From: Moritella sp.
GTDB lineage: Bacteria > Pseudomonadota > Gammaproteobacteria > Enterobacterales > Moritellaceae
Direction of reading: 5' to 3'
Assembly: GCF_013215705.1 (NCBI RefSeq)
Contig: NZ_JABSQR010000010.1
Location: 62,001-126,000 of the forward strand
DNA length: 64,000 nucleotides
Shown in pieces: positions 2 through 27,146 of the stretch; positions within the stretch are counted from its first letter, which is position 1; each line of letters starts with the position of its first letter. Made by a program: the position numbers and the translations under genes. The notes beneath the pieces are model-generated. The model was given only the letters and a program-made list of their open reading frames with translations, was not told the origin of the DNA and made no database searches.

Positions 2-3000
2 GTTTTCGCACTGCAAACGCCTTACCATATCGCACAAGCTCTCGCTGCTGAGGAGGGGCCGTCCGAGATTATAGGCAATGAGTTATTGAACGATAATAAC
101 AGTAGTCCATCTGAATATCCGATGGCGCCTATTCAGCATTGGTTTTTTGAACAACAGCTTAAGCATGCCGCTCATTGGAATCAATCGGTACTCTTGAGTC
201 ACGATAACGTGTTAGACGTTACTTGTTTTACTAAAGCCGTAGAACAAGTGTTAGCAACGCATCAGCAATTAGCGATGAATTTCACACCGACTAAAAATAG
301 CGATTATCAGCAGTTTATTGGCAATCATCAGGTTGAAGTTTGTTCACACACTATTCATAGCGAAGCATTGCAATCTCAATTATCAAGTCTGCAAAGTACG
401 TTATCACTGAGTGGAACTGCACCTATCCGAGTCGATTTATTTAAGTTAAGTGATCAACCACAAGGACGTATTTTATTTACGGCCCATCATTTGGTTATCG
501 ATGCTGTTTCTTGGCGTATATTGGTTACGCAAATTTGGCAAACTTACCAGTTATTGAGTCATGGGCTTTCTACTGATGGTTCGTTAGAAACATACCAAAC
601 CACATCTTATCAAGCATGGGTTGATGATTTATTACAGTGGCCTGAACATAAGATCAAGGCGGCACGTGATTATTGGTCGCCGATGGCAAGCGAAGCTCAA
701 GAAATGCAACAAGCTTGGGTGTCATTGCCGATGAATAACTTAGACAATGCCCAAACAATTGAAAATCATATCCGCGATGTTGATGTTATTGAAGTCAAAC
801 TACCTGCTCACTTGACTGAAAAATTGATTTCTAAGTCCTTGTCTGCTTACCAACTAAAAATTGATGAATTAATGCTAGCTGCTGTGACATTCGCAATGTC
901 GCAATGGCGTGGTTCTAATACAATGTTGATTGAACTAGAAAGTCACGGGCGTCATCATGATGACCTCGATTTATCACAAACGATAGGTTGGTTCACGAGT
1001 CGCTATCCAGTGTTATTAGCATCTATTGATAATTGTTCATCAGATTTACTGATGCGTCAGCATATTCTGTCTATTAAAGATCAGTTACGCGCAGTGCCTG
1101 ATTATGGGCAAGGTTTTGGTGTGCTGAAGTATCTGCATAATGAAGTGACGGAGCTTGTTACACCTGCTTTAGTATTTAATTATCTTGGTCAAATTGATAA
1201 AGGCATGATGAGTCAAGGCGTTGGACTCGCGCCTGAGCAAATTCCTAATCAACGCCACGGCGATAATACTCGACCACAATGGTTAGACTTAAATGCAATG
1301 ATTACCGGCGGTAAATTAAATATGCGCTGGAATTATAATACCTTGGTGAATACAAAAGATGAGATCAAGTTGTTGGCATTGACTGTCATCGAGTACTTGT
1401 CAAAAATGATTGAACATTGTGAGCATACTGATAATGCGATATCAAAATCTGAAGTACCATTATTGACGTTAACCCAACCCGAGCTTGATAGCTTAGTAGA
1501 CTTAATACCAGCCCCCCAAGACACCATTAAGGATATATATCCTTTAACGCCGTTACAAAATGGCATGTTGTTCCACACATTGTCAGAACAAAGCTTAGGT
1601 ATGTATGTAAACCAAAGTCTGGTTGAACTAGATGGAGAACTTGATGTTAAGGCATTAGAATCTGCTTGGCAGTGGGTAATCAATCAACATGATATGTTAC
1701 GTACAGGTTTTATTTGGCAACAACTAGATGAACCTATTCAATATGTTGTTAAAGAGTCACAAGTTGATTGGCAAAATATTAATTACCTTGGAAAAATAAC
1801 AAGCGAAGCAGAAGCTGAATTGAAGGTATTAGCCGAACAAGAGGTTGATACCGGGTTTGAGTTAAATAAAGCTGGCTTGATGCGTTTTAAATTAGTGAGA
1901 TTAGCAGAAAATCATCACTGTCTAATTTGGACTCGACATCATTTAATTGTGGATGGTTGGTGTACTAATTTGGTTATAAGAGAAGTACAACAAGCGTACC
2001 TTGCTATATGTGCTAATCGTACCCCCGCTATTTCGAACCGCCCACCGTTCCGAAATTTCATTGAATGGTTAGATAATCGAGAACTTAAGGAGAGTGAAGC
2101 ATATTGGCAGCACTGTCTGAATGGTTATGAAACGATGGCGAGATTGCCTAGACCCTTTAATAGTCATTCGGGTGTCTCTCAGCAAACTGAACATTTATCA
2201 ATAGAACAGACAGCGTCACTGAAGTTATTAGCCGCGAAAAATCGCTTAACATTGAATTCGCTTTGCCAAGCAGTATGGGCGTTAACACTGCAACGATATA
2301 CAGGCAGTAATGATTTAGTCTTTGGTGTTACGAGTGCAGGTCGACCCGATGATTTGGCTAATGCGAATGATATCGTCGGTGTGTTTATTACCAGTATTCC
2401 ACTTAGAGCACAACTTTCGGGTGAACAGAACTGGGTTGATTTAGCGCTTCAGCTGCAAGAACAAATGGCTGAGAGTCGAGAGCATGAACATGTTTCTTTG
2501 TCGAATATTCAGCGTTTAACGGGTCATCAAGTAGACTTATTTGATAACTTGCTAGTATTTGAAAATTACCCAGCAGATAAACAACCAATCGATCGCAGCC
2601 TCACATTAGCGGTACGTGAAACGACAGAGCGGAATAATTACCCGCTGACGATGATTATTATTCCACACCAACGCCTTGATTTTAGAATAGTCAGTAATAA
2701 TAGTCAGTTAGATTCAAGTATTGCGAATGCGTTACTTGCTGACTTTATGACGTTATTAGCGACATTAGCAAAAGGTGATAGATCTGAACAAACAGGTGAC
2801 GCATTAAGTTGTAAGGGGCTAGTTGATGAGCTAAATACTCATTCTGAGCAATCTCCAGCTTGGTTATTGAACCAAACTCAGTATGACTTTAGTCATCACC
2901 CCGATACGCTTTCTGCATGGCTTGAGCAACAAGCTCAGCTGACACCAGATGCAATAGCGTTAGTTTGTCAGCCTCAGGGACATGAGCAAGACATGGTATT

Positions 3001-4798
3001 AACTTATGCCCAATTACACGAAAAATCGGCTCAGTTAGCACATTACTTAATTAATGAACACGGCTGTAAATCAGAAGATAAAGTGGCTGTTTGCATGACG
3101 CGTTCACCACAAATGGTGATCAGTTTATTAGCTATTTTAAAAGCGGGTTGCGCTTATTTACCACTTGATCCCGAGCACCCATCACAACGTTTAGCTTATA
3201 TTGCGGAAGATGCGAATGCAAAAGTAGTATTAACGCTAGAAACATGCCGCAATACGTTATCGAGTGAGCTTCAAAAAACGGCCGTTATTGTGGATGCAGA
3301 ATTGAAGATCTGTGCGAGCTACCCAACGACGGCACCTAAAGTTTGTATTTCACCAGCGCAGCTAGCGTATGTGTTGTATACATCTGGCTCAACGGGTCAG
3401 CCTAAAGGTGTTGCGATTCCTCATGCCGGTATTGTTAACCGTCTGGCTTGGATGCAGCAGCAATATACATTAACAGATCAAGATGTGGTGTTACAGAAGA
3501 CACCTTATAGTTTTGATGTATCTGTTTGGGAGTTTTTCTGGCCGCTAATTACGGGCGCAAAACTGGTTGTTGCAGAACCGAATGCACATAGAGACAGTGC
3601 GCGCTTAGCTGCAATTATCCAGCAGCATCAGGTCACTACTATTCACTTTGTCCCTGCGATGTTGCAAGCATTTCTTGACCACTCTACGGTGAGTGATTGT
3701 CGTTCGCTCAAACGAGTCATTTGCAGCGGTGAAGCTTTACCTTATCAACTACAGCAGCAATTTTTCCAAAGCTTTGATGCTCAGCTACATAATTTATATG
3801 GCCCAACGGAAGCCTCTATTGATGTGACTTTTTGGGACTGTCGAAGTCAAGATATCCCAAATGTCGTTCCGATTGGTCATCCTATTGCCAATATGCAAAC
3901 TTGGATCCTGGATGAGGCACTAAATACTGTCCCTGTCGGTGTCGAAGGAGAGCTTTATCTCGCAGGGGTTGGTTTGGCGCGAGGTTACTTAGGCCGTGAT
4001 GACTTAACGGAAAAAGCATTTATTGCGAATCCGTTTGCCGTAGAAGGCGCTAATACGGACGCTCAATTTAGTCGTCTGTATCGCACTGGTGATATTGTGC
4101 GTTATCGACCTGATGGTGCAATTGAATATGTGGGACGAGCTGATTTCCAGGTGAAAATTAGAGGGTTACGTATTGAGCTAGGGGAGATTGAAGCCTGCAT
4201 AGCTGAACATCCCGAAGTGAAAGAAGTTGTCGTGATTGCTCGCCGTAGCGGCGAGACTAATGATTATTTAGCCGCCTATGTTGTGGCAGAAGAGACATCT
4301 GAGGGGCCGCTGGATGACTTGTTGATGTGGCAGGCATTCCTACTCACCAAACTGCCTGATTATATGATGCCGACGTTTGTGACTGTGTTAGCACAAATGC
4401 CCGTGACCAATAACGGCAAGATAGATCGTTCTGCATTACCTGAACCTAAATCATCTGGTCACGCTTTTGTGGCACCAGCAACCCCGACAGAGCATAAAGT
4501 CGCTTTATTGTGGCAAGACTTGTTAGGTGTCGAAGCGGTTGGACGAACAGATAACTTCTTTGCGTTAGGCGGACATTCATTATTAATCACGCGTCTTGTT
4601 AATCAGATAAATAATATTTTCAGTTTAAATATTAGTCTAACGGATGTGTTAGCCATGACGGTGCTTGAACAGCAAGCAAGTTACATCGATATGCTGATGG
4701 CACAATCTCAACAACAGTCACAATCACAATCACAATCACAATCACAATCACAATCACAAATTGAATCTGAAGAGCAATGGGAGAGTTTTGAGCTATGA
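2..4798 (+). CDS. NRPS, C-terminal part (PCP end-E-C-A(Ser)-PCP), 5' end outside window
   Basis: The reading frame is open from base 2 with no stop. The residues before the TTG at 86 (VFALQTPYHIAQAL) resemble the last helix of a carrier protein, so the gene starts upstream and the TTG is internal. Domains in order: an epimerase (about 104-1440; HHLVIDAVSW at 485, FNYLGQ near 1180), a condensation domain (about 1530-2800; YPLTPLQNGMLFH, HHLIVDGWC near 1936), an adenylation domain (about 2900-4440; YTSGSTGQPKG, YGPTEAS, NGKIDR) and a carrier protein (GGHS, serine codon at 4577). The residues I read in the adenylation pocket, DVWHISLID(K), match the known serine code. The condensation domain follows an epimerase, so a D-aminoacyl donor is expected. 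The protein ends in a Ser-Gln repeat and an acidic tail (EEQWESFEL), probably a docking peptide for the next synthetase, which it overlaps by ATGA. Confidence 0.93.
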   Translation, partial: VFALQTPYHIAQALAAEEGPSEIIGNELLNDNNSSPSEYPMAPIQHWFFEQQLKHAAHWNQSVLLSHDNVLDVTCFTKAVEQVLATHQQLAMNFTPTKNSDYQQFIGNHQVEVCSHTIHSEALQSQLSSLQSTLSLSGTAPIRVDLFKLSDQPQGRILFTAHHLVIDAVSWRILVTQIWQTYQLLSHGLSTDGSLETYQTTSYQAWVDDLLQWPEHKIKAARDYWSPMASEAQEMQQAWVSLPMNNLDNAQTIENHIRDVDVIEVKLPAHLTEKLISKSLSAYQLKIDELMLAAVTFAMSQWRGSNTMLIELESHGRHHDDLDLSQTIGWFTSRYPVLLASIDNCSSDLLMRQHILSIKDQLRAVPDYGQGFGVLKYLHNEVTELVTPALVFNYLGQIDKGMMSQGVGLAPEQIPNQRHGDNTRPQWLDLNAMITGGKLNMRWNYNTLVNTKDEIKLLALTVIEYLSKMIEHCEHTDNAISKSEVPLLTLTQPELDSLVDLIPAPQDTIKDIYPLTPLQNGMLFHTLSEQSLGMYVNQSLVELDGELDVKALESAWQWVINQHDMLRTGFIWQQLDEPIQYVVKESQVDWQNINYLGKITSEAEAELKVLAEQEVDTGFELNKAGLMRFKLVRLAENHHCLIWTRHHLIVDGWCTNLVIREVQQAYLAICANRTPAISNRPPFRNFIEWLDNRELKESEAYWQHCLNGYETMARLPRPFNSHSGVSQQTEHLSIEQTASLKLLAAKNRLTLNSLCQAVWALTLQRYTGSNDLVFGVTSAGRPDDLANANDIVGVFITSIPLRAQLSGEQNWVDLALQLQEQMAESREHEHVSLSNIQRLTGHQVDLFDNLLVFENYPADKQPIDRSLTLAVRETTERNNYPLTMIIIPHQRLDFRIVSNNSQLDSSIANALLADFMTLLATLAKGDRSEQTGDALSCKGLVDELNTHSEQSPAWLLNQTQYDFSHHPDTLSAWLEQQAQLTPDAIALVCQPQGHEQDMVLTYAQLHEKSAQLAHYLINEHGCKSEDKVAVCMTRSPQMVISLLAILKAGCAYLPLDPEHPSQRLAYIAEDANAKVVLTLETCRNTLSSELQKTAVIVDAELKICASYPTTAPKVCISPAQLAYVLYTSGSTGQPKGVAIPHAGIVNRLAWMQQQYTLTDQDVVLQKTPYSFDVSVWEFFWPLITGAKLVVAEPNAHRDSARLAAIIQQHQVTTIHFVPAMLQAFLDHSTVSDCRSLKRVICSGEALPYQLQQQFFQSFDAQLHNLYGPTEASIDVTFWDCRSQDIPNVVPIGHPIANMQTWILDEALNTVPVGVEGELYLAGVGLARGYLGRDDLTEKAFIANPFAVEGANTDAQFSRLYRTGDIVRYRPDGAIEYVGRADFQVKIRGLRIELGEIEACIAEHPEVKEVVVIARRSGETNDYLAAYVVAEETSEGPLDDLLMWQAFLLTKLPDYMMPTFVTVLAQMPVTNNGKIDRSALPEPKSSGHAFVAPATPTEHKVALLWQDLLGVEAVGRTDNFFALGGHSLLITRLVNQINNIFSLNISLTDVLAMTVLEQQASYIDMLMAQSQQQSQSQSQSQSQSQSQIESEEQWESFEL
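4718..4759 (+). repeat. TCACAA hexamer microsatellite, 7 copies, in frame
   Basis: Seven perfect tandem copies of TCACAA encode (Ser-Gln)7 between the last carrier domain and the acidic C-terminal tail of the NRPS. A hexamer changes copy number without a frameshift, so slippage would only lengthen or shorten a flexible linker. Confidence 0.95.
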
Positions 4799-7700
4799 GT
4801 ATTGCGGTTTATATTACAGAGTTATTTCAGCGCAATATTCGTATTAGCCTTGAAAATGGAAAATTAAAAGTGGACGCCCCGAAAGGGGCTATAACGACTG
4901 AGATTAAGCAAGAATTAATGAGCAAAAAACAGGCGCTTATTGATTATTGGCAAGAGCAGCAAAATATTAGCCAATTGCCTGCGCTAACCGCTGTAGATCG
5001 TAGTCAACGTGATTTACCTATGTCATCAGCGCAGCAACGATTGTGGTTTTTACAGCAGCTTGAACCAGAGAGTAGCCAATACAATGTGAATGCATTATTG
5101 GCGTTAAAAGGTAACGTGAATACGGTATTATTACGCCAAGCCTTTGCTGATTTGGTTATTGATCATGAGATCTTTTATACTGCATTTGCAGAGAAAATGG
5201 GGCGTGCTGATGTACAACTTCTGTCGCCTGAATTAGTTGCAGATGCGGTAAAAATTGATGAGATAAACTTGCAGCATTGTGATCAAAATATTGAACACAA
5301 AGATTATCAAGATGCCATTAAACAGGCGATGTCAGCACCGTTCAACTTGGCTGAACCGCCGTTATTTCGTTTAGTTCAATTGAAGATGAGCGATAGTTTG
5401 TCGCATTTGGTACTTAGCTTTCACCATATTGTTATTGATCATTGGTCGTTACAATTATTAACTAAACTTTTATTACAAAAATATAAAGCAGTACAAAAAT
5501 GTCAGAATAACGTGGATAGTTTGGGTTGTGATAAAGGCGTTACGCAGCCAAAAACTGTATTGCAATATTTAGATTATGCGCATTGGCATAATCAATTATT
5601 AGCAGGAGATCATTATCAAAAGTTAAAAGATTATTGGCTACAAACGTTAGGTACTGAGGACTATTGTTTAAGTTTGACGACTGATCATCCTAGAACGTTA
5701 GACACAGGTCATCAGGGTGCTAGGTATAGTATAACGTTGGAACATGAAACGTTTACCGCTTTAAAGGAAACGAGTCTTGCACTCGGTTGTACACCCAATA
5801 CAATATTGTTAGCAGCATACCAGTGGTTATTGGCTCGTCACTCGGGAATGACAGATATTCGAGTCGCTTGTCCAGTAGCTGAGCGTGGTCATGCTGATCT
5901 TGAGCATATGCTAGGCTTATTTGTAAATACGATGGTTGTCCGTGCAGAGTTGTGTTCTGGGATGACTGTGAGTGCTTGGCTAGCTGTTGTACATAAGTCG
6001 ATATCAGGCGCGCAAAAACACGCTGCGATGCCATTCGAAAAACTTGTTGATGAACTCAGCGATTCCCGCGAAGGTGAGCACGAGCCACTTGTACAAACAA
6101 TGTTTAATTATCTCGCGGTTGATGCAGCTGAGTCTGTCATGATTGATGACATGCGTGTTACCGCATTGGCGATACCTGAATTTCAGGCAAAATTTGATTT
6201 ATCATTATTCGTGGTTAATGATGGACAGGGAATTAACCTATCATTCCAATATAAAACGCAATTATTTGAATCTAGCACTATCGCACGATTAGCTGAACAG
6301 TATATTTCAGGGCTTAAGTATCTATTGTCAGCGCAAGATAAACCGCTTGCGAACCATTCCGCACTTTCTGCTCAAGAGTGGCAACAGCAGCAACAATGGA
6401 ATGCCACTAACACCGCGTTCGATACACCTGCGACCTTGACCGACGCTTTGATTGCACAGCAACAAGCAACACCAAGCAATATAGCATTACGCTACCAATC
6501 GCTTAGTTGGACCTACCAAGAACTCGGCGATAGAGTCAACCAGCTAGCAAATTGGCTGGTGGAACAAGGCTGCCAACCAGAAGATAAAGTGGCGATATGC
6601 ATGACCCGTTCACCGCAAATGGTGGTGAGTATTTTAGCTACAGTAACAGCGGGATGTGCATATTTACCGTTAGATCCAGAACATCCTCAGCAACGCATTG
6701 ATTATATTTTAGATCACGCGAAACCGTGTGTGATTTTAGCGATGCCTGAATTTAAACAAGGATTATCCGAGTCAAATCAGTCTCATAATCTATGGGTGTT
6801 GGATGATTCATTTAGCTTGATTGCATCACAAAGCACAGCGTTTAAAGCGTCATCTAATGTCAGCAGCCAGCTTGCCTATGTGCTGTACACATCGGGTTCG
6901 ACGGGACAACCGAAAGGTGTCGCTGTACCGCATAGTGGCGTGATGAATCGAATCGCGTGGATGCAGGCTGAATATGGCTTGTCTGCAGATGATATCGTGT
7001 TACAAAAAACCCCTTATAGTTTTGATGTATCAGTATGGGAATTCTTTTGGCCATTAATGACGGGGTCAACACTGGTATTAGCGGGGGCTGGTGAGCATAA
7101 AGACAGTCAACGACTGATTGAGTTAATCAATGAGTACAAAGTGACCACGCTGCATTTTGTGCCTGCGATGTTACAGGTTTTCTTAGATAACCCAGATGCG
7201 AATAGCTGTGTATCTTTATCGCGTATATTCTGTAGTGGTGAGGCTTTACCCTATCAATTACAGCAGCAATGTCTATCTAGTTTAACGGCTGAATTACATA
7301 ATCTGTATGGTCCAACGGAAGCTTCTATTGATGTGACTTATTGGGATTGCCGCAAGCAACATATTAAAGATGTGGTCCCGATTGGCTTTCCTATCGCAAA
7401 CATTCAAACTTGGATCTTAGATAGTGAATTGAATCCTGTACCCGTCGGGGTTAGTGGTGAGTTATACCTTGCTGGTATTGGTTTGGCTAGAGGATACTTG
7501 AATCGTCCAGACCTTACCGCAGAAGCCTTTATTCCTAATCCGTTCGCTGAGTCTGGCGCTATTGGCGATGCCCAATATAGTCGCTTGTACTGTACTGGAG
7601 ATGTAGCTCGTTATCGTCACGATGGCAGTATTGAATATGTAGGGCGCGCCGATTTTCAAGTGAAGATTCGTGGATTACGTATTGAGTTAGGTGAAATTGA

Positions 7701-10700
7701 AGCACGTATAGCAGAGTTAGATGCGGTTAAAGAAGTTGTGGTTATGGCACGTAAAGAGGAACAAAGTGCAACATACTTGGCTGCTTATGTTGTTGCATCT
7801 GACCGTAAAGCATTACCGGAACTTGATGAGTGGCAAACGCTGCTCTCAGCATCACTGCCTGAATATATGATCCCAACAGTGTTTGTCGCTTTGGACGAAA
7901 TGCCGTTGAGTCAAAATGGTAAAGTGGATCGTAAAGCACTTCCACAACCTGATTTAGCTGCGCTAAATAGCAGTGATTATATTGCACCTACTTCTAGCAA
8001 CGAAAGTATTTTAGTCGATATTTGGCAGTCTCTATTAAATATCAAGCAGGTTGGGATTAATGATAACTTTTTCGCTATTGGTGGTGATTCCATTATTAGC
8101 TTGCAGGTTGTTGCTCGCGCGCGTGAAGCAGGGTTAACACTGCAACCAAAAGATATTTTCCGTCACCAAACGGTCAAAGCATTGTCCGCGGTAGCAACAC
8201 AAGAAGCTCAAGTCAGTTATAACCAAGATGATGTTTATGGCGATATCCCGTTAACGGCGATACAAGATTGGTATTTAGCGCAACCTTTGCATAATCCTAA
8301 CCAGTTTAACCAAGCGATTTTATTGGCAAGTAATAATGACATAGTGCCTGAATATCTACAGCAGGCGCTAACACATCTTGTATTATCTCATCCTATGCTG
8401 GCTGCTCGATTTATGGAGTCTAAAAATAAGCAAGGACAAGCTTGGACACAAAATACGTCTATTGATGACGAAATGACGATAGCATTCAATGTTATTGATT
8501 TTTCTGATTGTGGCTCGGTACAGAAACAGGCTGAAATAACCAAATTATGTCAACGTGAGCAGACGCAGCTACAGCTACAAACAGGTGCGGTTTTCCGTGC
8601 ATCATTACTACGTTTTGGATCTTTGCAAGATGGACGTACGGACTATCGCTTACTGCTTGTTGCCCACCACCTGGTTATCGATGGTGTATCGTGGCGGATC
8701 ATATTAGATCAACTCAGCCATGATTATCAGCGTCTAGAACGCGGCGGAAAATTGGCCGATATCGTCTATCAAACCACCCCCTTTAAACGTTGGGCTGAAC
8801 AAGGACTGCTGCAATCGATAGATGCTGAAGGCGTGGCACTTTGGCATGCATGGGTGAGCAATACCATGAATAGACAAGCGATTAAGTCACAGTTACCGCT
8901 TGATCGTATTGTTAACAGTTTCCAACCTGGAGAGCAGGCTAATCAGCGATTTAGTTTAAGCTTAGCGCATTCTGAACGCTTGTTACGTGAGGCTGGACAA
9001 CCTCTTCGCGCTCGTATTGATGAATTATGTTTAGCTGCGCTGTCTAAAACATTAACTGAGTGGACCACAAATCCCAATCATTTGATCAACCTAGAAGGTC
9101 ATGGTCGCGATCTATTAGATATGGATGTGAGCCAAACCGTTGGTTGGTTTACGCGTTTATATCCAGCAGTACTTAGCGCTGAACCAAATAGCTGGCGAGA
9201 ACAGATATTACAAACTCGTCGTCAACTCAGTGCGTTACCGGAGCAGATAGTACCTTTTAGTTTAGCGCAGCCTTTGCTTACTACACAGGTTAAACCACAA
9301 ATCGTATTTAATTATTTAGGTCAGCTTGATACTCAGCAAGGCTTTATGCAGAAAGCGCCTGAACAATTATCTGAATTTAGAGACCTAGCTAACCCATTAG
9401 CGTGGTTATTAGAAGTAAATGTCTTTATGCAAGCAGGGTTGTTAAAGGTTAATCTGCAATATGCACAACAGGCCTTTTTACCTGAAACGATTGAATATTT
9501 AGCCCAAGCATACCAAAGCCATTTAGAACATATGCTTAATGAGCTCTGTGGGGTGAATCAAGTTAGCAATAATCTTCAATGTTTACCGGGTGCGATTGCG
9601 GCTGATTTTCCACTTGCCAACATCACTGATATCCAAGCTCAAACGCTCGTTGAGAAATATAGCAACCAAGTTGTGGAAGATCTCTACCCGTTGACACCGG
9701 TGCAACAAGGCATGTTATTCCATTGTTTAGATCACAGTGATGCTTACATTAGCCAAAGTATCGTTAAATGCGAAGGTGAGTTAAATACGTCGGTCTTTGC
9801 TCAAGCTTGGCAGGCGGTTGTCGATAATCACCCCGCATTACGCACCGAATTGGTTATCGATGGTGTTGATGAACCGCATCAAGTTGTACTAAAACAGGCT
9901 GATTTATCTGTTGTTGAATACGATTGGCAGGGGCTTTCTGTTGAACGTAAAGCCGAAGCCCTTGCTGAATTACGTAATACCGAGCTAGCCGCTATCGAGT
10001 TGGATATCGCGCCATTAATGCGAGTTGCTTTAATTTGTCATGCTAAAGATGACTTCCAATTGGTCTGGACTATTCACCATTTGATTATGGATGGCTGGTG
10101 CTTGAATTTATTGGTCAGTGAAGTCATGCAAGGGTATGCTTTATTGTCGAATAAAGAGCCGAATCAAAAGTCGAATCCAGAATCTAACCCTTTGCAAAAA
10201 ATAGAACCCGCGGTGCCGTTTAGCGACTTTATGGTTTGGTTACAGAAGAGAGATGAAACTGCCGCCGAGGATTATTGGCGTCAGCAATTAGCCGGTATTG
10301 AACAACCTAATAGGTTACCTGCAGCATATGTACAACCTGTTTCTAACACTTGTCTACCAGAGGAATGTTATAGCATTTCACATCATATGATTGGTGAAGA
10401 TAAATCTCGTCAGCTAGATGCACTTTGCCAACATCATGCGCTGACCTTAAATACGATGATTCAGGGATTATGGGGAATGGTTCTGTCCCGTTATATGGGG
10501 AGCCTTGATATTGTTTATGGTGTTACCACCTCTGGTCGCCCCGCTGATTTACCGGGTGCAGACAAAATACTGGGTGTATTTATTAATACATTACCTCTGC
10601 GCCTAAAGCTAGACACAGAGAGGAAATTAGGTGATTGGTTAACTGATATCCAGACTGAAAATCTCACAATGAGAGACTTTGAACAGACGCCTTTGGCTAA

Positions 10701-13700
10701 AATTCATCGGGTGACATCGGTGCCTCAAGAAATGAGCTTATTTGAAAGTTTGTTAGTGTTTGAAAACTTACCAGCAAGTGATAATAAACCTCAAGAAGGT
10801 TTGTCTTTAGCATTGGAAGAACATCATGTACGGAATAACTTCCCACTGACCTTACGTGTAGTGCCAAAAACAGAGTTACAATTTGATCTATTGATTGATA
10901 GAGAAAGGGTCGATTTAGCGCTTGCGACGCAAATGGTTACTTCGTTAATACAACTCATTGAGATGGTACTGACGGAGAAGAATGCGCTTGATAAATCGTT
11001 AAATGCACACTTAACCGGTTTAGTTTCTGGTTTAACCGTGGTCAACTTACCTGATGCTCCGGTAGGGACCTTATTAGAACGGATCAGATGTCAGCCTGCA
11101 GAGACCCCGGCGTTGCTATTTAGTCAAGATGATAGTCAATTGAGCATGAGTTACCAACAACTTATTGCTCAGGCCGGATTACTCGCATCTAAGTTACCGG
11201 AACTCAACAATAAAGAGTCTGTTATTGCGATATGCTTACCACGTCAACAAGAACAAATTATTGCTATGTTGGCGGCGTGGTGGAAAGGGGCCGCATGGTT
11301 ATGCATTGATGCTGAGCTACCTGTCGAGCGTATTAAATACATGCTTGAGGATGCGGGTGTTGATTATGTACTTGGTATTGAACAGCCTGAATATTGGCAA
11401 CAACTATCGACCCCTTGGTTCGATGTTTCATCTGCAGCCTTGATTCAAACCACGGGCGCTGTGGCCAGTATAATCCCTGCCACCCCATTGAATATGTCTG
11501 ATACTGCGTATGTAATTTATACTTCGGGTTCAACGGGGCAGCCTAAAGGCGTAGCGGTAAGCCATGGTAATGCGCTTAGTTATATTGATGCATTTTTCGC
11601 AAGAATTGATATTGCAAGTGATGCCAGTATGACGACGCTCGCTACCGTCTCTGCTGATTTAGGGCTTACTTCGGTACTTGGTGCATTAGCAACGGGTCGA
11701 GCCTTAATGCTGATACCCGCTGAATTGAATTTCAACCCACCTGAACTGGCTGAATATTTGGCTCGTTATCCTGTGGATGTATTGAAAATTGTACCTTCCC
11801 ATCTAAAAGCAATGTTAGCCGTAGATGAACCAGAGCGGCTATTACCGCGTCAGTGTCTTATTTCTGGTGGTGAGTCTTTGACTGAAGAGCTGGTAACATG
11901 GTTATCCAAGCAAGCACCTAAGATGACGATTGTTAATCACTATGGACCGACGGAAGCGACGATTGGTTGTATAGCTAAAGTTATCAAGAATGAAGAACCA
12001 GTATTACTCGGTAAACCATTAAGTAATAGCACTGCGATGGTTGTTGATGGTCATGGCATTCCCGTTGCGCAAGGTGTGGCTGGTGAATTATGGCTTGCAG
12101 GACATGGTATTGCGAAAGGCTACTTGAATAAACCCGAGCAGACGGCGATTAGTTTTGTCAATATTCCGCTTATGCCTGAGCTAGGTCAAGAAGGTGAAGA
12201 GGTTGGTTCTATACGTGTTTATAAAACTGGCGACAAGGTTTACCAAACACAAGAAGGTGAACTTGTTTACCTGGGTCGAATGGATGATCAGGTTAAGATC
12301 CGAGGTTATCGAGTTGAATTGAATGAGGTTTCAGCGCAACTATTAGACATTGATATGTTAGTGGATGCAATTGCGGTCGTTGTTCCGGGTCCATCAGGAA
12401 ACCGACTGGCAGCCTGTATTGTTCTGAATGAAGTGATGCAGGGAGGACTTAGTGATAGTGCGTTACTAGACAAAATTAAGCACCAGTTATCAAGCATGTT
12501 ACCTGATTACATGGTGCCTACTCTGTGGCACGTTGCTAAATCGCTACCCTTAAATCGTAATGGTAAAGTTGATCGTCAACAAGTGATAGCGCTGCTGAAT
12601 ACGCCTGTTAAGGCTGAGCTTAGTCAAGTCAAAGCCGTTGTTGAAGAGTCCAAATCAACAAGCGATGTTATGACTGAACTTTGGCAAGGTTTATTAGGTT
12701 GTGAAATAGCATTAAACGACAATTTATTCAGCTTAGGCGCTGATTCAATAGTCTGTTTACAATTTATCGCTAAAGCGCGTAAACATCAGTTTAAATTTAC
12801 ACCGAAGCAAATATTTAACGCTCCTACGGTCAGTGAGTTAAGTCTATTGGCTGACAAAATGATTGCGAAAGTTGTGATTGAGTCAAAAGAAAGCATCACA
12901 GTGAACATACCTGTTAAGGCTGAAATTAACCAAGTCACAATGGTTGTTGAAGACGCGAAATCAACAAGCGATATTATGACTGAACTTTGGCAAGGTTTAT
13001 TAGGTTGTGAAGTCGGATTAAACGACAATTTATTCAGCTTAGGCGCAGATTCAATTGTATGTTTACAATTTATCGCTAAAGCGCGTAAACATCAGTTTAA
13101 ATTTACACCTAAGCAAATATTTAATGCGCCTACGGTCAGTGAGTTAAGTCTATTAGCTGAAAAAATGATGACGAAAGTTGTGGTCGAGCCAAAAGAAAGT
13201 ATCACTGTAGATAGCGTTGTTCCTGTTTCTTTACCTATCGAGTCTGATTTATTACCTATCCAGCATTGGTTCTTTGAAGTTGAACAACCTGTTATGCATC
13301 ACTGGAATCAAGCAGTGATGTTAAAATTACCGGAACAAGTTGACCATAGCGCAATGGCTCAGGCAATTGACGCAATAGTGACAAAGCATCCAGCTTTAGC
13401 TGCAAGGTTTACTTTTGATGAGAAACATCGTCAGTACCGCCAGTTGGATAGTGGTGAAACCGCAGGTATTTATGCCGCTTTTGATAATCAGCAATTAGCT
13501 AATATTGATAGTTTGGTACAGGCATGTCAGCAAAGTTTAAACTTAACATCTGGTCCATTATTTAAAGTTGTCACGTTCAACTTACAAGATGGTAGTGCGC
13601 GATTATTACTGATTGCTCATCACCTTGTCGTTGATGGTGTATCTTGGCGTATTATTGGTCATGATCTGCAGCGAGCCTATCAAGCTTACCTCAGTGGTGA

Positions 13701-16700
13701 GTATATAGAACTAGGTTCAGAACATATGTCGATGGCAGAATGGCAACGAAGCTTAACCCATTACCCTAAAGATAAACTAGATCTGGCTAGACAGTTCTGG
13801 CTTCCTATGGCGGCTCGTTCTTTGGATGGCATACTTATTCCTGGAGCACAAAATGGCACGATTGCTGAGTCAGAAAAAATAGAGCAGATCTTTAGTACGT
13901 CGTTAACTCAGTCACTCATCGAGATGGGTATTATTGAACAACGTTCTGGCTGCGAAGTTGCGATGCTTACGGCGTTATCAACAACGTTATGCGAGGTATT
14001 TAATAAAGATAAGGTAATGATTGAATTAGAAGGACATGGCCGTTATCCATGGCTTGAAGATCAAGACCTTAGTGAATCGGTTGGGTGGTTTACAACGCGC
14101 TATCCGGTTTCATTTAATGCTGAATCTTGTTCGTTATCAGCTGTCGGTAAATCGTTATCTCAAGTGCCAGATCAAGGTCTTGGTTATGGCGTACTACGTT
14201 ATTTACAACAAGAGTTCGCTTTTGAACATCCACAATTGGTCTTCAATTTCCTTGGGCAAGTGGGAACAAATAGTAGTGAATGGCAACTTGTTAGTAATGG
14301 CTCTGGTCAGTCTCGCCATCCATCAAGCATTCGTCGTCAGCTCATTGACGTAACTGCGCAAATTAGAGATGGCCAGTTGCAAATATCATGGCAATTCCCT
14401 GGTGTGCTTAACAACAAATTAGCTGGGTTAGTTAAGTTATTTGAGGAGAAACTCAGTAACCTTATAGCACCGACATTAAATCCACATTATGCGCTAACAC
14501 CAATGCAGCAGGGCATGTTCTTACATAGCTCATCTTCGTCAGAATCTTTGTATTTTAATCAAACAGTGGTAGAACTGAATGGCGAATTAGATACTTCGGC
14601 ATTCATTCAAGCATGGCTGCAAACTGTCAATGCTGAACAAGCGCTAAAAGCGGTATTTGAGGAAACCAGTAATGGAGAACCAGTACAGTGGTTTGCTAAG
14701 GACGCAGAATTACCCGTTCATCGTTATAACTGGCTCGGTTTAGATAAAAGGGAACAGCAACAGCGTCTTGATGCTTTGTGTATAGAAGATCGCGCGCAAG
14801 GCTTTAATCTAGCTCAGCCACCTTTAATGAGATTGCACTTGATCCATATAGCCGAGGGACAGTATTGGTTAATTTGGAGCCGTCATCATTTAATCGTCGA
14901 TGCTTGGTGTTCTTCATTAGTGATTAAAGATGTACTGCATCGTTATTTGAATTTAACTGGGCAAGTACTTTCAACGCCGCCGGTACGCCCGCAATTTGAG
15001 CTATACCTTAATTGGTTAGCGCGTCAAGATATGACACAAAGTCACCAGTTTTGGCGTGACCAATTAGCCGATTTTAATACACCGTTAGTATTAGCTAAAG
15101 GCAATCAAGATGATGGTTTTTATCTTGATGATTATAAGTTGTCAGCGTCATTAACTCAAAATATCAAAGATATGTCCAAGCGCGAAGGGGTAACGCTGAA
15201 TGCGGTTATCCAATCGGCTTGGGCATTAACGTTGGCACGACATAGTGGTAAGCATGATGTTGTTTTTGGAATGACGTCATCGGGTCGACCTGCAGATCTT
15301 GAGCAGGCTCAGCAGATCATTGGTATTTTTATTAATACGCTGCCTGTTCGAGTTAACCTTATTGAGACAATGACAGTGCCACAGCTACTGCAAAATACTC
15401 ATCAACAAGGTGCAGAATTACGAGAACATGAATATACGCCATTGGTTGATATTCATGCTCAAAGTGAGTTGAGTGCAGGGCAAAGCTTGTTTGATACGTT
15501 ATTGGTATTCGAAAATGAAGCTATGTCTGAATCATCTGAAATATCACAGCACTTATCTGTGCGCCCTTTAAGTGGATATGAGCGTAATAGCATTCCGCTA
15601 ACGATTACCATTATGCCTGATCAGCAGTTGGTGTTCAGAGTCGGTTGTAATGGAGACAAACTTTCTTATATTGCATCTAAGCATATGCTGGCGAGTTTAG
15701 AGTCGATTTTGACCCAGATGGTTGAAGCAGAGTCTCAACCATTAGGCTTATTATTAGGTGCTGAGGGTGCCAGCGCTAGCAATGAATTTGTGGGTGAAAG
15801 TCAAAAGCAGTGGGCAGATAATTGGTGTCTTGAAAAGCAGATACTCAATGTTGCGAAATATTCGCCTGATGCTATCGCTATATGTGATCAAGATTGTGAA
15901 CTCACTTATACGCAGTTGATAAGCAGAGTGACTCACCTTGCCCAGGCGCTTAGTGAGCGGGGTATTGGGGTGAATAGTTCAGTTGCAATTTGCCAGCAGC
16001 GAAATACCGAACTCCTCGTTTCATTATTAGCTGTTTTGTGGTCTGGCGCGGCCTATATCCCTCTCGATCCTAATCAACCAAGTGCAAGATTAGCATTGAT
16101 TTTAGCGCAAGCAGAACCGGATATCATTTTAGTCGATGAGCAAGCTATCGAACTATCAACGGGGAGTGTACAGACGACGTTAGCATCTTTATTACAAAAT
16201 TGTACGAAGGATGAATCATGGTTGGATGCACAACCATTACCGCACCCTGAACAATTGGCATACACGATTTTCACGTCGGGTTCGACAGGCATTCCAAAAG
16301 GCGTGCAAATTTCACGACGAGCGTTTGCTAATTTCCTACAGAGTATGATGGAAATCACAGGACTTAGTGCTAAAGATAAGCTACTTGCTGTCACGACTTT
16401 GGGCTTTGATATTGCTGGGTTAGAGCTGTTTTTACCTTTGCTTGTTGGTGGCCAAGTGGTGATGGCAAGTTATGATGCTTCACGTGATGGGCAGCAACTG
16501 GCAGAACTGATTAAACAGCAATGCATCACTGTTATGCAGGCAACACCGATAACGTGGCAAATGTTGACAGAGCAAGCATCTTTAAATTGGTCAAACCTCA
16601 CCGTTATCACTGGTGGTGAGGCGCTACAGCCGTCATTAGCACAGAGTATTGTGGCAAAGGGGGCAAGGTTATTTAATGTTTACGGCCCAACAGAAACGAC

Positions 16701-18441
16701 TGTTTGGTCATCAGCTGTAGCGCTAAATAAGCACAGTGCTGCACAACCACATTTAGGTTCGCCAATTGCAAATACTGATTTCTATGTATTGGATGACTGG
16801 TTCAATCCCGTTGTTAACGGTGTTGAAGGCGAGTTGTTTATTGGAGGCGAAGGTCTAGCTCGGGGTTATACTAACCAACCTAGTTTAACTGCAGAGGTGT
16901 TCATGCCCGATCCGTTTAGTACTATTGCTGGTGCAAGAATGTATCAAACAGGAGACGTGGTATGCATAAATAACCAAGGCAATATGGAATTTATTGGCCG
17001 AAAAGATTTCCAGATGAAATTGCGTGGTTATCGAATTGAAGCAGGGGAGATTGAGGCTATTTTAAACGCGTACCCAGGCGTGAAGGATGCCGTCATTCAA
17101 CTTTGTTATGTCGACACGCCACATGCTTGTTTAGTGGGCTATGTGACTGCGATTCAAAGTATGCATCTTGATATTGGTTCGTTAATGGCTCAACTCCGAG
17201 ACGCGTTACCATCTTATATGGTTCCGCAGTCCATTGTCGTATTAGAGGCAATGCCATTAAATGCGAATAATAAAATAGATCGTAAAGCCTTACCAAATCC
17301 GGAGCAAAGTACCAAGGTCGGATTACCGCCGAGTTCTGAAATGGAGCTTTGGTTAGCCAGCACATGGGGTAGCTTATTAGGGGGGGGATCGGTTTTTGCT
17401 GATGATGACTTCTTTGTTTTAGGCGGGAATTCATTACTTGCTGGGCGGATGATCGCATTATTAAAACAGCAGAAAAATATAAACCTGAATTTAACGCTGT
17501 TATTTCGCTATCCAGTGCTACGTGATCTTGCTGCCGCTATTATGCAGGTTGATAAATCAGAACTTATTTCAGCCTCTTCTTTAGTTGTAGCACTTAAACA
17601 AGGTGTTAATGACGATGGCCAACAGCAATCACCCTTATTTATATTTCACCCTGCAGGAGGCCACGTTCAGGCTTATGCGGAGCTAGTTGCGTCATTACCG
17701 CCTGAAAATACAGTATATGGTATTCAGTCACCTCAGTTACTTGATTTATCTTTAGTGCCAGATAGCGTTGATGAGTTTGCTAAATTGTATGTAAAAGCGT
17801 TGCAGTCTGTTCAACCTAAAGGACCCTACCGCCTATTGGGCTGGTCTTTTGGCGCATGGTTAGCGATTGCTGTAACCAATCAACTAGAAGCGTCTGGTCA
17901 GACTGTGGAGTGGTTAGGTATTGTGGATGCTAGAGCCGATGCGCATCGTGCCAAGCTTAACTTACCTGCGTTTCCAATAGTAGCAAGGTACCTAGCTTGT
18001 TTAGATAATGAGACTCGCGAGTTATTACTAGATAAATACAGGTTAGAATTAGGTTCGTTGGAAGCGGATTTACAACAAGTACAAACAGAGGAGAGAGATG
18101 ACATTGCATTTGAATATTTAAGTGATTTATTGGCTATCCATAAGCCTCTGATTAATAGAGACTCGGGAGCCAGTGAAATGCATTATATGCAGATGAAACT
18201 GTTTATGAAATGTCACCTATTAATGCAAAGCCATAGATTACAGCCTGTTTCAGTTCCAATGGCAGTCTGGTGGGCGACAGGTACTTTAACCGATAGAGAG
18301 TATCAGTTAGGTGCAAAAGAGAATGAGTGGCAAGATTATGGCTCAGTATCGATATCTATATTGACTGGTGACCATCAAAGTATTATTCGTGACCCTTTGT
18401 TAACGAATGAGATTGCTAATTCGTTAGGCGTCATTTCGTAA
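4795..18441 (+). CDS. Terminal NRPS, 4548 aa: dock-C-A(Ser)-PCP-E-C-A(Asp)-PCP-PCP-E-C-A(Gly)-PCP-TE
   Basis: This three-module synthetase ends the assembly line. Residues 1-55 resemble a TubC-type N-terminal docking domain. Module 1: C (H210-H211-IVI-D215-H216, with His in place of the usual Gly), A (pocket DVWHFSLID, serine), PCP (S1099), E (HH 1291-1292). Module 2: C (HHLIMDGW at 1761), A (DLTKIGHIG, close to the known aspartate code), two nearly identical PCPs (S2651, S2753), E (HH 2942-2943). Module 3: C (HHLIVDAW at 3364, Gly to Ala), A (DILQIGVVW, close to known glycine codes), PCP (S4213) and a type I thioesterase (GWSFG, S4351; H4527). The first C domain looks LCL and the two after epimerases look DCL. 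The expected order is L-Ser (previous protein), D-Ser, D-Asp, Gly, then release or cyclisation. Specificities were read by eye. Confidence 0.95.
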   Translation: MSIAVYITELFQRNIRISLENGKLKVDAPKGAITTEIKQELMSKKQALIDYWQEQQNISQLPALTAVDRSQRDLPMSSAQQRLWFLQQLEPESSQYNVNALLALKGNVNTVLLRQAFADLVIDHEIFYTAFAEKMGRADVQLLSPELVADAVKIDEINLQHCDQNIEHKDYQDAIKQAMSAPFNLAEPPLFRLVQLKMSDSLSHLVLSFHHIVIDHWSLQLLTKLLLQKYKAVQKCQNNVDSLGCDKGVTQPKTVLQYLDYAHWHNQLLAGDHYQKLKDYWLQTLGTEDYCLSLTTDHPRTLDTGHQGARYSITLEHETFTALKETSLALGCTPNTILLAAYQWLLARHSGMTDIRVACPVAERGHADLEHMLGLFVNTMVVRAELCSGMTVSAWLAVVHKSISGAQKHAAMPFEKLVDELSDSREGEHEPLVQTMFNYLAVDAAESVMIDDMRVTALAIPEFQAKFDLSLFVVNDGQGINLSFQYKTQLFESSTIARLAEQYISGLKYLLSAQDKPLANHSALSAQEWQQQQQWNATNTAFDTPATLTDALIAQQQATPSNIALRYQSLSWTYQELGDRVNQLANWLVEQGCQPEDKVAICMTRSPQMVVSILATVTAGCAYLPLDPEHPQQRIDYILDHAKPCVILAMPEFKQGLSESNQSHNLWVLDDSFSLIASQSTAFKASSNVSSQLAYVLYTSGSTGQPKGVAVPHSGVMNRIAWMQAEYGLSADDIVLQKTPYSFDVSVWEFFWPLMTGSTLVLAGAGEHKDSQRLIELINEYKVTTLHFVPAMLQVFLDNPDANSCVSLSRIFCSGEALPYQLQQQCLSSLTAELHNLYGPTEASIDVTYWDCRKQHIKDVVPIGFPIANIQTWILDSELNPVPVGVSGELYLAGIGLARGYLNRPDLTAEAFIPNPFAESGAIGDAQYSRLYCTGDVARYRHDGSIEYVGRADFQVKIRGLRIELGEIEARIAELDAVKEVVVMARKEEQSATYLAAYVVASDRKALPELDEWQTLLSASLPEYMIPTVFVALDEMPLSQNGKVDRKALPQPDLAALNSSDYIAPTSSNESILVDIWQSLLNIKQVGINDNFFAIGGDSIISLQVVARAREAGLTLQPKDIFRHQTVKALSAVATQEAQVSYNQDDVYGDIPLTAIQDWYLAQPLHNPNQFNQAILLASNNDIVPEYLQQALTHLVLSHPMLAARFMESKNKQGQAWTQNTSIDDEMTIAFNVIDFSDCGSVQKQAEITKLCQREQTQLQLQTGAVFRASLLRFGSLQDGRTDYRLLLVAHHLVIDGVSWRIILDQLSHDYQRLERGGKLADIVYQTTPFKRWAEQGLLQSIDAEGVALWHAWVSNTMNRQAIKSQLPLDRIVNSFQPGEQANQRFSLSLAHSERLLREAGQPLRARIDELCLAALSKTLTEWTTNPNHLINLEGHGRDLLDMDVSQTVGWFTRLYPAVLSAEPNSWREQILQTRRQLSALPEQIVPFSLAQPLLTTQVKPQIVFNYLGQLDTQQGFMQKAPEQLSEFRDLANPLAWLLEVNVFMQAGLLKVNLQYAQQAFLPETIEYLAQAYQSHLEHMLNELCGVNQVSNNLQCLPGAIAADFPLANITDIQAQTLVEKYSNQVVEDLYPLTPVQQGMLFHCLDHSDAYISQSIVKCEGELNTSVFAQAWQAVVDNHPALRTELVIDGVDEPHQVVLKQADLSVVEYDWQGLSVERKAEALAELRNTELAAIELDIAPLMRVALICHAKDDFQLVWTIHHLIMDGWCLNLLVSEVMQGYALLSNKEPNQKSNPESNPLQKIEPAVPFSDFMVWLQKRDETAAEDYWRQQLAGIEQPNRLPAAYVQPVSNTCLPEECYSISHHMIGEDKSRQLDALCQHHALTLNTMIQGLWGMVLSRYMGSLDIVYGVTTSGRPADLPGADKILGVFINTLPLRLKLDTERKLGDWLTDIQTENLTMRDFEQTPLAKIHRVTSVPQEMSLFESLLVFENLPASDNKPQEGLSLALEEHHVRNNFPLTLRVVPKTELQFDLLIDRERVDLALATQMVTSLIQLIEMVLTEKNALDKSLNAHLTGLVSGLTVVNLPDAPVGTLLERIRCQPAETPALLFSQDDSQLSMSYQQLIAQAGLLASKLPELNNKESVIAICLPRQQEQIIAMLAAWWKGAAWLCIDAELPVERIKYMLEDAGVDYVLGIEQPEYWQQLSTPWFDVSSAALIQTTGAVASIIPATPLNMSDTAYVIYTSGSTGQPKGVAVSHGNALSYIDAFFARIDIASDASMTTLATVSADLGLTSVLGALATGRALMLIPAELNFNPPELAEYLARYPVDVLKIVPSHLKAMLAVDEPERLLPRQCLISGGESLTEELVTWLSKQAPKMTIVNHYGPTEATIGCIAKVIKNEEPVLLGKPLSNSTAMVVDGHGIPVAQGVAGELWLAGHGIAKGYLNKPEQTAISFVNIPLMPELGQEGEEVGSIRVYKTGDKVYQTQEGELVYLGRMDDQVKIRGYRVELNEVSAQLLDIDMLVDAIAVVVPGPSGNRLAACIVLNEVMQGGLSDSALLDKIKHQLSSMLPDYMVPTLWHVAKSLPLNRNGKVDRQQVIALLNTPVKAELSQVKAVVEESKSTSDVMTELWQGLLGCEIALNDNLFSLGADSIVCLQFIAKARKHQFKFTPKQIFNAPTVSELSLLADKMIAKVVIESKESITVNIPVKAEINQVTMVVEDAKSTSDIMTELWQGLLGCEVGLNDNLFSLGADSIVCLQFIAKARKHQFKFTPKQIFNAPTVSELSLLAEKMMTKVVVEPKESITVDSVVPVSLPIESDLLPIQHWFFEVEQPVMHHWNQAVMLKLPEQVDHSAMAQAIDAIVTKHPALAARFTFDEKHRQYRQLDSGETAGIYAAFDNQQLANIDSLVQACQQSLNLTSGPLFKVVTFNLQDGSARLLLIAHHLVVDGVSWRIIGHDLQRAYQAYLSGEYIELGSEHMSMAEWQRSLTHYPKDKLDLARQFWLPMAARSLDGILIPGAQNGTIAESEKIEQIFSTSLTQSLIEMGIIEQRSGCEVAMLTALSTTLCEVFNKDKVMIELEGHGRYPWLEDQDLSESVGWFTTRYPVSFNAESCSLSAVGKSLSQVPDQGLGYGVLRYLQQEFAFEHPQLVFNFLGQVGTNSSEWQLVSNGSGQSRHPSSIRRQLIDVTAQIRDGQLQISWQFPGVLNNKLAGLVKLFEEKLSNLIAPTLNPHYALTPMQQGMFLHSSSSSESLYFNQTVVELNGELDTSAFIQAWLQTVNAEQALKAVFEETSNGEPVQWFAKDAELPVHRYNWLGLDKREQQQRLDALCIEDRAQGFNLAQPPLMRLHLIHIAEGQYWLIWSRHHLIVDAWCSSLVIKDVLHRYLNLTGQVLSTPPVRPQFELYLNWLARQDMTQSHQFWRDQLADFNTPLVLAKGNQDDGFYLDDYKLSASLTQNIKDMSKREGVTLNAVIQSAWALTLARHSGKHDVVFGMTSSGRPADLEQAQQIIGIFINTLPVRVNLIETMTVPQLLQNTHQQGAELREHEYTPLVDIHAQSELSAGQSLFDTLLVFENEAMSESSEISQHLSVRPLSGYERNSIPLTITIMPDQQLVFRVGCNGDKLSYIASKHMLASLESILTQMVEAESQPLGLLLGAEGASASNEFVGESQKQWADNWCLEKQILNVAKYSPDAIAICDQDCELTYTQLISRVTHLAQALSERGIGVNSSVAICQQRNTELLVSLLAVLWSGAAYIPLDPNQPSARLALILAQAEPDIILVDEQAIELSTGSVQTTLASLLQNCTKDESWLDAQPLPHPEQLAYTIFTSGSTGIPKGVQISRRAFANFLQSMMEITGLSAKDKLLAVTTLGFDIAGLELFLPLLVGGQVVMASYDASRDGQQLAELIKQQCITVMQATPITWQMLTEQASLNWSNLTVITGGEALQPSLAQSIVAKGARLFNVYGPTETTVWSSAVALNKHSAAQPHLGSPIANTDFYVLDDWFNPVVNGVEGELFIGGEGLARGYTNQPSLTAEVFMPDPFSTIAGARMYQTGDVVCINNQGNMEFIGRKDFQMKLRGYRIEAGEIEAILNAYPGVKDAVIQLCYVDTPHACLVGYVTAIQSMHLDIGSLMAQLRDALPSYMVPQSIVVLEAMPLNANNKIDRKALPNPEQSTKVGLPPSSEMELWLASTWGSLLGGGSVFADDDFFVLGGNSLLAGRMIALLKQQKNINLNLTLLFRYPVLRDLAAAIMQVDKSELISASSLVVALKQGVNDDGQQQSPLFIFHPAGGHVQAYAELVASLPPENTVYGIQSPQLLDLSLVPDSVDEFAKLYVKALQSVQPKGPYRLLGWSFGAWLAIAVTNQLEASGQTVEWLGIVDARADAHRAKLNLPAFPIVARYLACLDNETRELLLDKYRLELGSLEADLQQVQTEERDDIAFEYLSDLLAIHKPLINRDSGASEMHYMQMKLFMKCHLLMQSHRLQPVSVPMAVWWATGTLTDREYQLGAKENEWQDYGSVSISILTGDHQSIIRDPLLTNEIANSLGVIS
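12604..13215 (+). repeat. 306-bp tandem duplication giving twin carrier domains
   Basis: Two adjacent copies, 12604-12909 and 12910-13215, are offset by exactly 306 bases (102 residues). Both start with the same CCTGTTAAGGCTGA stretch. Each encodes one complete carrier protein with the motif LGADSI. The copies differ at only a few codons, mostly in the linkers, which points to a recent in-frame duplication or ongoing gene conversion. Confidence 0.93.
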
Positions 18442-22805: not shown

Positions 22806-23116
22806 CTTAAATTATCACTGTACTACAACACTGACGTTATCAATGTACCGTTAAACCTTTGCGTTTAATCGGGGATTGATGATGAAAAAATTTAGTTATA
22901 CCAATTGCATTAAATAAGTGATCAATTATTTCGCCGGAAAAAGTGACAATAACCAGACGTTAATTGCCGTAACTAGTTATTCTAATTACAAAATTAACAA
23001 CGCAGTTAGTGGCAGTTTTAACCAGAAAGAATGACCATCTATTTATTGTGATTGGTATTAATACGGATGACCGTCGTTCACTCGATAGGGATTTTGTAGA
23101 AAGGAAAATGCAAAAA
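22806..23116. other. Gap between DUF2946 and PepSY genes, possible gene remnant
   Basis: After a TTGATG context at about 22876 there is a start-like MMKKFSYTNCIK that stops at once. Its 3' part (ATACCAATTGCATTAAATAA) resembles an intergenic repeat I associate with marine gammaproteobacteria, though this is from memory. A short open frame follows, INYFAGKSDNNQTLIAVTSY and about 17 more residues. This may be the scar of a deleted gene. I see no intact gene here. Confidence 0.35.
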
Positions 23117-27137: not shown

Positions 27138-27146
27138 GGAGCGCAT

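Follow-up and report, generated by a model that had tools for sequence, protein, structure and literature searches.

A seven-module lipopeptide siderophore assembly line predicted in Moritella sp., with a conserved module that lacks an adenylation domain

Introduction

Beta-hydroxyaspartate (OH-Asp) siderophores, nonribosomal peptide synthetase (NRPS) modules without an adenylation (A) domain and tandem carrier (T) domains are all of known kinds. In cyanochelin B of Leptolyngbya sp. NIES-3755 (plasmid AP017310), a stand-alone hydroxylase precedes an Asp module with an epimerization (E) domain and is taken to give D-threo-OH-Asp, according to the available part of the source (PMC12628792). The locus described here likewise has a stand-alone hydroxylase gene and then an Asp module with the C-A-T-E order, where C is a condensation domain. 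The same partial source describes cyanochelin B as an amphiphilic peptide with Gly, Ser and OH-Asp, as is predicted here, but with two OH-Asp, a thiazoline start and a PKS part, unlike the present line (PMC12628792). The plasmid also differs in bearing an extra C domain before the Asp module, and the two stretches of it that we mapped contain no A-less C-T-E module.

The potashchelins are peptides that bear a fatty-acyl group and contain OH-Asp, Ser and Gly, their line beginning with a FAAL, and the formomarinobactin cluster holds TauD, TonB, MbtH and NRPS genes, as far as the accessible portions of the sources go (PMC7100376, PMC13037486). Both are amphiphilic siderophores like our predicted product, but they carry hydroxy-Orn ligands in those portions, whereas no Orn-type pocket occurs here (PMC7100376, PMC13037486); and unlike the potashchelin line with its FAAL, ours has no further PF00501 place nearby. 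Pandorabactin, in the available part of its description, shares with our locus an MbtH gene, a type II thioesterase and one stand-alone hydroxylase, to which its two OH-Asp, both metal-binding, are credited; it contains L-erythro-OH-Asp, and it differs from our case in a hydroxamate as further ligand, a FAAL start and six modules with six A domains (PMC12144892). An A-less module supplied in trans, as would be the case here, is described for the syringomycin synthetase SyrE in the portion of the source at hand, where chlorinated Thr has an A-T protein of its own, SyrB1, whereas no separate A protein was found in our genome (PMC8949500).

Results

Domain organization of the window

The stretch of DNA analyzed, hereafter the window, comprises 64,000 nucleotides of a Moritella sp. 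genome (G000:C7:62001-126000), and the 34 kb before it were also examined; a window position equals the L001 position minus 14000. In the ORF listing, two long ORFs occupy the first 18.4 kb: 2..4798, which runs in across the left edge and is the end of NRPS2, and 4795..18441, the complete NRPS3 of 4548 aa. A Pfam domain search of the island found condensation and AMP-binding domains in the same gene, with condensation E-values within the window down to 2e-88, far beyond chance. Domain mapping gave the string E-C-A-T, then C-A-T-E-C-A-T-T-E-C-A-T-TE (TE, thioesterase), with the following features (module types and pockets by alignment, tree and domain mapping):

5' of window start, plus strand: C domain and two T domains of module 3, the A-less module (domain mapping)
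2..4798, plus strand: C-terminal 1598 aa of NRPS2 (whole gene L001:12076-18798)
107..1447, plus strand: E domain of the A-less module 3 (HHLVIDAVSW, ESHGR; motifs and domain mapping)
1526..4693, plus strand: module 4, DCL-type C, A (DVWHISLID, Ser), T
4795..18441, plus strand: NRPS3, 4548 aa, with an N-terminal TubC docking domain (ORF and domain search)
5005..9564, plus strand: module 5, LCL-type C, A (DVWHFSLID, Ser), T, E
9673..14445, plus strand: module 6, DCL-type C, A (DLTKIGHIG, Asp), tandem T-T, E
12670-12861 and 12976-13167, plus strand: the tandem carriers of module 6 (domain mapping)
14479..17547, plus strand: module 7, DCL-type C, A (DILQIGVVW, Gly), T
17626..18414, plus strand: TE domain, end of the line (domain mapping)

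A sequence-only reading of the window had proposed a line ending in D-Xaa, L-Ser, D-Ser, D-Asp and Gly. Alignment returned its four pocket codes, DVWHISLID, DVWHFSLID, DLTKIGHIG and DILQIGVVW, letter for letter, with no code in disagreement, though each has nine residues and not the ten then stated; the substrate names Ser, Asp and Gly, for all pockets in this work, are assigned from Stachelhaus codes. Domain mapping reproduced the order E, Ser, Ser-E, Asp-E, Gly-TE, with the terminal TE where that reading had placed it and E domains after the unnamed residue, the second Ser and Asp, as it had said. All three E domains carry the HHxxxDxxSW and ExHGR motifs in a motif scan; a third, strict E-domain pattern matched 8 of 18. 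The "D-Xaa" itself fared less well: its E domain is present, but there is no pocket to read, since the module has no A domain. The two carriers of the Asp module 6 were not part of the earlier account. They are tree neighbours on very short branches, and one related cluster (G010) has a single carrier there; the pair is probably a recent duplication.

The complete line and its surroundings

The earlier reading had advised extending the locus upstream, and this showed that the line begins 8.5 kb before the window, with NRPS1 at L001:5452 and NRPS2 at 12076. It had also proposed looking for siderophore receptors and hydroxylases beside the line, and both a TonB siderophore receptor and a TauD-type hydroxylase lie upstream (by domain search unless noted):

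L002:13319-14983: ABC exporter
L002:14983-19999: Opp-type solute-binding protein (SBP), two permeases and ATPase
L001:373-1029: nitroreductase
L001:1022-1738, minus strand: type II thioesterase
L001:1805-4102, minus strand: TonB receptor
L001:4193-4330, minus strand: MbtH
L001:4475-5440: stand-alone TauD hydroxylase (TauD family match)
L001:5452-12072: NRPS1 (ORF and domain search)
L001:12076-18798: NRPS2 (ORF and domain search)

By alignment, the upstream pockets are A1, DLTKVGHVG (Asp), and A2, DILQLGVVW (Gly), so the two residues ahead of the A-less module are Asp and Gly (modules 1 and 2). In two Vibrio clusters and a Marinomonas cluster, module 2 reads DILQLGLIW, which we take to be the classical Gly code. 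The full line thus counts seven modules, spread over three NRPSs: starter-C-Asp, Gly, [no A domain]-E, Ser, Ser-E, Asp-E, Gly-TE.

Two genes 3' of the NRPSs were considered as cluster members and set aside. A GGDEF/EAL gene (19371-22145) has a close match solely in G010 (267 aa), and a PepSY_TM gene (23009-24592) matched in one of six other clusters (52 aa, G010). The latter lies 4.5 kb 3' of the NRPS genes; a weak relative (24%) stands beside the receptor in genome G246, and an ORF of the MAG locus L021 resembles it by eye only. Further on, a BetI regulator, an aldehyde dehydrogenase and a GMC oxidoreductase (25078-28838), then an OpuAC-type binding protein and transport genes, look like an ordinary choline-betaine operon.

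Module 3 lacks an A domain in all seven related clusters

Domain mapping read module 3 as C-T-T-E. In Pfam, the N-terminal 698 aa of NRPS2 gave one condensation domain and two PP-binding stretches, and no AMP-binding domain. Our comparison took in the clusters in which the hydroxylase shares at least 73% identity with ours, a group set by that identity and not by the module 3 gap (the next hydroxylases are at 66-67%): G000 (the present genome), G007, G010, G011 (Vibrio ruber), G012 (Marinomonas lutimaris), G013 (Vibrio sp. MEBiC08052) and the Vibrio harveyi plasmid p.N8T11-A. Module 3 was A-less in all seven, with just 33-55 aa between its C domain and first T domain. The C motif HHxxxD was retained in 7/7, the T serines and the E motifs HHxxxDxxSW and ExHGR in the six clusters checked, and a tandem T was present in 6/7. 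Our genome is a draft assembly (4.86 Mb in 58 contigs), where a missing domain could stem from misassembly or a frameshift, but the same structure recurs in 7/7 sequences, including a 1-contig genome, a 3-contig genome and a complete plasmid. This conservation rules out such an artefact as the origin of the gap, and we give it practically no weight.

The island on p.N8T11-A, a 97-kb plasmid, spans L108 10631-38109; two of its NRPS reading frames are each broken by a stop, and its module 6 has three carriers. Another A-less module, of a different kind (C-T), was found by profiles in G246, which belongs to another family of the order and whose cluster has the same kind of hydroxylase; its NRPS (L062/L063) reads C-A-T-C-T-C-A-T.

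The residue probably added at module 3

For a tree we took 63 C domains out of ten clusters, with G000, G011 and G012 representing the group; two named rows were left out, as were domains no longer than 380 aa. The C domain of module 3 (C3) grouped (100/96) with L021_M2C, G949_M5C, G1078_M5C and G246_M5C, each of which is followed by an intact Asp A domain and tandem T domains. In another C tree, C3 joined the MAG relative L021 at 99/95. The L021 line reads starter-C-A(Gly)-T, then C-A(Asp, DLTKLGHIG)-T-T-E, and its second module reads as the same kind of module as module 3, with the A domain present. Its E domain scored highest with the E domain of module 3 (E3) and was left unplaced by the E tree.

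Carrier number followed the same line. Across the seven clusters, tandem or triple carriers occurred in 16 of 21 modules at positions 1, 3 and 6, versus 0 of 28 at positions 2, 4, 5 and 7 (Fisher p = 6e-9, a value that ignores relatedness, as counts from related clusters are not independent). Carrier trees placed the T domains of module 1 with those of module 3 weakly (88/91; 81/87). The C3 grouping and the tandem-carrier pattern together suggest that module 3 adds Asp, which we consider rather likely.

An unlikely alternative is that the Ser A domain of NRPS2 or a Gly A domain loads module 3, so that residue 3 would be D-Ser or Gly. The closest A domain downstream is that for Ser, which lies on the same polypeptide, a grouping of the T domain of module 5 (Ser) with that of module 3 was not rejected (p 0.25), and the T domains of the second L021 module score highest against that of module 5; against this, all four A-bearing relatives of C3 precede Asp, and tandem T domains are confined to Asp or A-less modules. 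It is also conceivable, at distinctly low probability, that the module is skipped and adds no residue, so that the product would be the hexapeptide acyl-OHAsp-Gly-Ser-D-Ser-D-OHAsp-Gly. The absence of the A domain in 7/7 clusters fits this, and the DCL-type C domain of module 4 could take achiral Gly; but decay would be expected of an unused module, whereas the C motif is intact in 7/7, the carrier serines and two E motifs in all six clusters checked, and the tandem T in 6/7. Mass would separate Asp at module 3 from these alternatives: with a C12:0 acyl chain, the calculated [M+H]+ is 882.36 for OH-Asp at residue 3, 838.37 for Ser, 808.36 for Gly and 751.34 if the module is skipped. For the linear acid with OH-Asp at residue 3, saturated acyl chains of C8 to C14 give calculated values of 826.29, 854.33, 882.36 and 910.39.

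The A domain that may load module 3

Our genome has 23 PF00501 places: 9 in two NRPS loci, 1 contig-edge fragment on contig C50 and 13 others. The second locus is an NRPS siderophore locus, G000:C3:268001-284796 (L003) and C50:1-7958 (L079), whose two parts are probably one locus split by a contig break. The C3-contig part has pockets DGEATGGVT twice and DVWHISLID (a cruder reading), a GNAT acyltransferase and a TonB receptor; the C50 part has MbtH, Peripla_BP_2 and FecCD transport genes, an ABC exporter and an NRPS start.

All 13 other ORFs scored 60-150 bits with an A-domain profile and lacked the A8 motif. The profile was built from the cluster's own domains, so that low scores elsewhere are partly expected; of the 22 control domains, the 21 NRPS A domains from four clusters scored 408-776 bits, all with the A8 motif, and one acyl-ligase-like domain (G758_M0A) failed. 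A stand-alone A protein as loader was thus rejected, 13 of 13 candidates failing both score and motif. As no NRPS-like A domain occurs among the 13, the loader is likely one of the line's six A domains or in the second NRPS locus. In yersiniabactin HMWP2, an A-less module is supplied in trans by an A domain shared within the line, and since no separate A protein was found in our genome, an A domain belonging to another module of this line would have to serve module 3 as well. The Asp A domain of module 1 or 6 as loader would fit the C3 grouping and the tandem-T pattern. The idea that A1 is the relocated A domain of module 3 was not upheld: a first tree joined A1 to the MAG Asp A domain (88/83), and a tree with more rows gave AU p 0.55 for A1 and 0.49 for A6, singling out no partner.

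Evidence for a siderophore

The TonB receptor scored 293.7 bits against TIGR01783 (NCBIfam; cut-off 223.5). It adjoins the hydroxylase in 7/7 clusters of the group (receptor 55-100% identical). The Opp-type SBP, two permeases, ATPase, nitroreductase and type II thioesterase are kept in 6/6 other clusters and the exporter in 5/5 other genomes, the plasmid stretch beginning inside the SBP gene and so not covering the exporter. MbtH, a small protein, matched in only 3/6 other clusters, and L021 matched the hydroxylase alone among the island genes. In our genome, a 25-bp stretch between MbtH and the hydroxylase holds two overlapping sites with 2 to 3 mismatches to the Fur consensus, which read on both strands make 4 matches versus 0.01 expected, suggesting that the island is probably Fur-regulated. 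The hydroxylase belongs to the TauD family, is 49% identical to the enzyme on the cyanochelin B plasmid and shares with it the HxE and the distal H.

In the accessible text of one source, the rule for calling a metallophore asks for an Asp hydroxylase that fits one of the profiles IBH_Asp, TBH_Asp and CyanoBH_Asp but does not fit SBH_Asp; the same text names non-siderophore OH-Asp clusters, turnercyclamycin and the syringomycin group (PMC12971057). Such non-metallophore relatives of the hydroxylase, as far as that source describes them (PMC12971057), along with the two Asp-Gly steps and the lipid-type starter C domain, would suit an OH-Asp lipopeptide that acts as an antibiotic or surfactant, akin to turnercyclamycin or the calcium-dependent lipopeptides. 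We hold this to be very unlikely, as the siderophore receptor and importer genes are conserved with the cluster and our genome has the Fur-box-like site. The gene content makes a siderophore island highly probable.

Probable lipid start, C-domain types and stereochemistry

The first C domain (C1) grouped (100/100) with first-module C domains of Pseudomonas-type clusters, in a tree without labelled reference starters. Those of G1078 and G246 come after an acyl-ligase-like gene; the own-genome scan found no such gene and no further PF00501 place near our line, so acyl-CoA would be used directly. A lipid start is, on this evidence, quite probable. The sequence-only reading had offered a metal chelator or a lipopeptide, and the receptor, TauD, MbtH, Fur-box-like site and C1 clade support it, probably as both together.

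C3 and C5 fell in the LCL-like half of the tree and C2, C4, C6 and C7 in the DCL-like half, labels that rest on what precedes each C domain and on motifs. C4, C6 and C7 come after E domains, as expected. C2 is DCL-type, yet module 1 has no E domain, which counts against our best explanation. Its nearest solved structures are C domains of the McyB, PvdL, surfactin, bacitracin and tyrocidine synthetases, and we take a number of these to be DCL. C2 as a dual C/E domain was rejected, for it lacks the FHH motif of such domains, which four C domains of G246 and G758 show.

Reitz in 2019 is said to have paired the hydroxylase with a noncanonical interface domain, C-like and close to the Asp module. 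In our line each module has a single C domain, the E domains bear E motifs and no extra C domain could be seen. An extra C domain does stand beside an Asp module in G246, G758, G949 and the cyanochelin plasmid AP017310 (C then C, or C ending the preceding gene); these are possibly interface domains, and none is in the clusters studied here. Following the cyanochelin B rule, residues 3 and 6 are predicted to be D-threo.

Distribution

The hydroxylase was found in 3 of 11 genomes of the genus. At the cut-offs set, it occurred in 5/394 genomes of the order draw (three from the same genus), 2/369 of the class draw (one being our genome) and 10/390 of the second-order draw (one also a class-draw match). 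The fetched DNA of 12 other genomes from these draws (G246, G156, G758 and nine more) held no seven-module line; G948 and G1135 had no NRPS gene in it, and the G156 stretch stops at a contig edge. An A-less C-T(-T)-E module was present in 3 of 36 named loci (one genome scan, each at most 21 kb).

We also compared 17 Pseudomonas loci with a TauD gene and a C-A(Asp)-T-T-E module (L006-L010, L012, L013, L018, L019, L022-L029). As in our locus, tandem carriers occur at an Asp module, here the first module in 16/17 (L018 has one T); the hydroxylase is 63-66% identical, and a TonB receptor is present in 17/17. The pockets of the eight read were Asp, then Dab-type. Unlike in our line, every module in the fetched 20.9 kb has an A domain.

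Discussion

Our best reading, which we hold at somewhat better than even confidence, is a lipopeptide siderophore acyl-(OH)Asp-Gly-D-(OH)Asp-Ser-D-Ser-D-(OH)Asp-Gly in which module 3 would receive its Asp in trans. The starter C domain would acylate Asp1 with a fatty acid, and Gly2 would be added. Module 3 would then obtain Asp from an Asp A domain of the line (module 1 or 6), and its E domain would convert this residue to D. Ser4, D-Ser5, D-Asp6 and Gly7 would come next, and the TE would release the chain. The hydroxylase would work on Asp bound to the carriers of modules 1, 3 and 6, and up to three OH-Asp would offer six oxygen donors for Fe(III). The complex would re-enter through the TonB receptor, and probably also the upstream Opp-type ABC importer. 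That all three Asp are hydroxylated we regard as an even chance.

Module 1 has an A domain, no E domain and a DCL-type C domain after it, while module 3 has an E domain and no A domain. The two may therefore be complementary in a tris(beta-hydroxyaspartate) lipopeptide, one A domain loading both in trans and one E domain serving both, with the tandem carriers as a shared platform for the single hydroxylase and all six donors from OH-Asp. This fuller scheme we put forward as an improbable one.

The open-licence literature yielded no described cluster with this module order, and hence no close match to a characterized cluster with a different product of the sort the earlier reading had allowed for; novelty is provisional. 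The same literature showed no peptide siderophore with three OH-Asp as sole ligands, which is a weak negative. The module 3 case shows that a "D-Xaa" in a pocket-based reading can conceal an absent domain. The product is testable, with calculated masses and named species. If the prediction is true, these bacteria would make a siderophore of three photoreactive beta-hydroxyaspartates, without hydroxamate or catechol, and the line would be a natural, conserved case of one A domain serving a distant module, which would bear on NRPS engineering.
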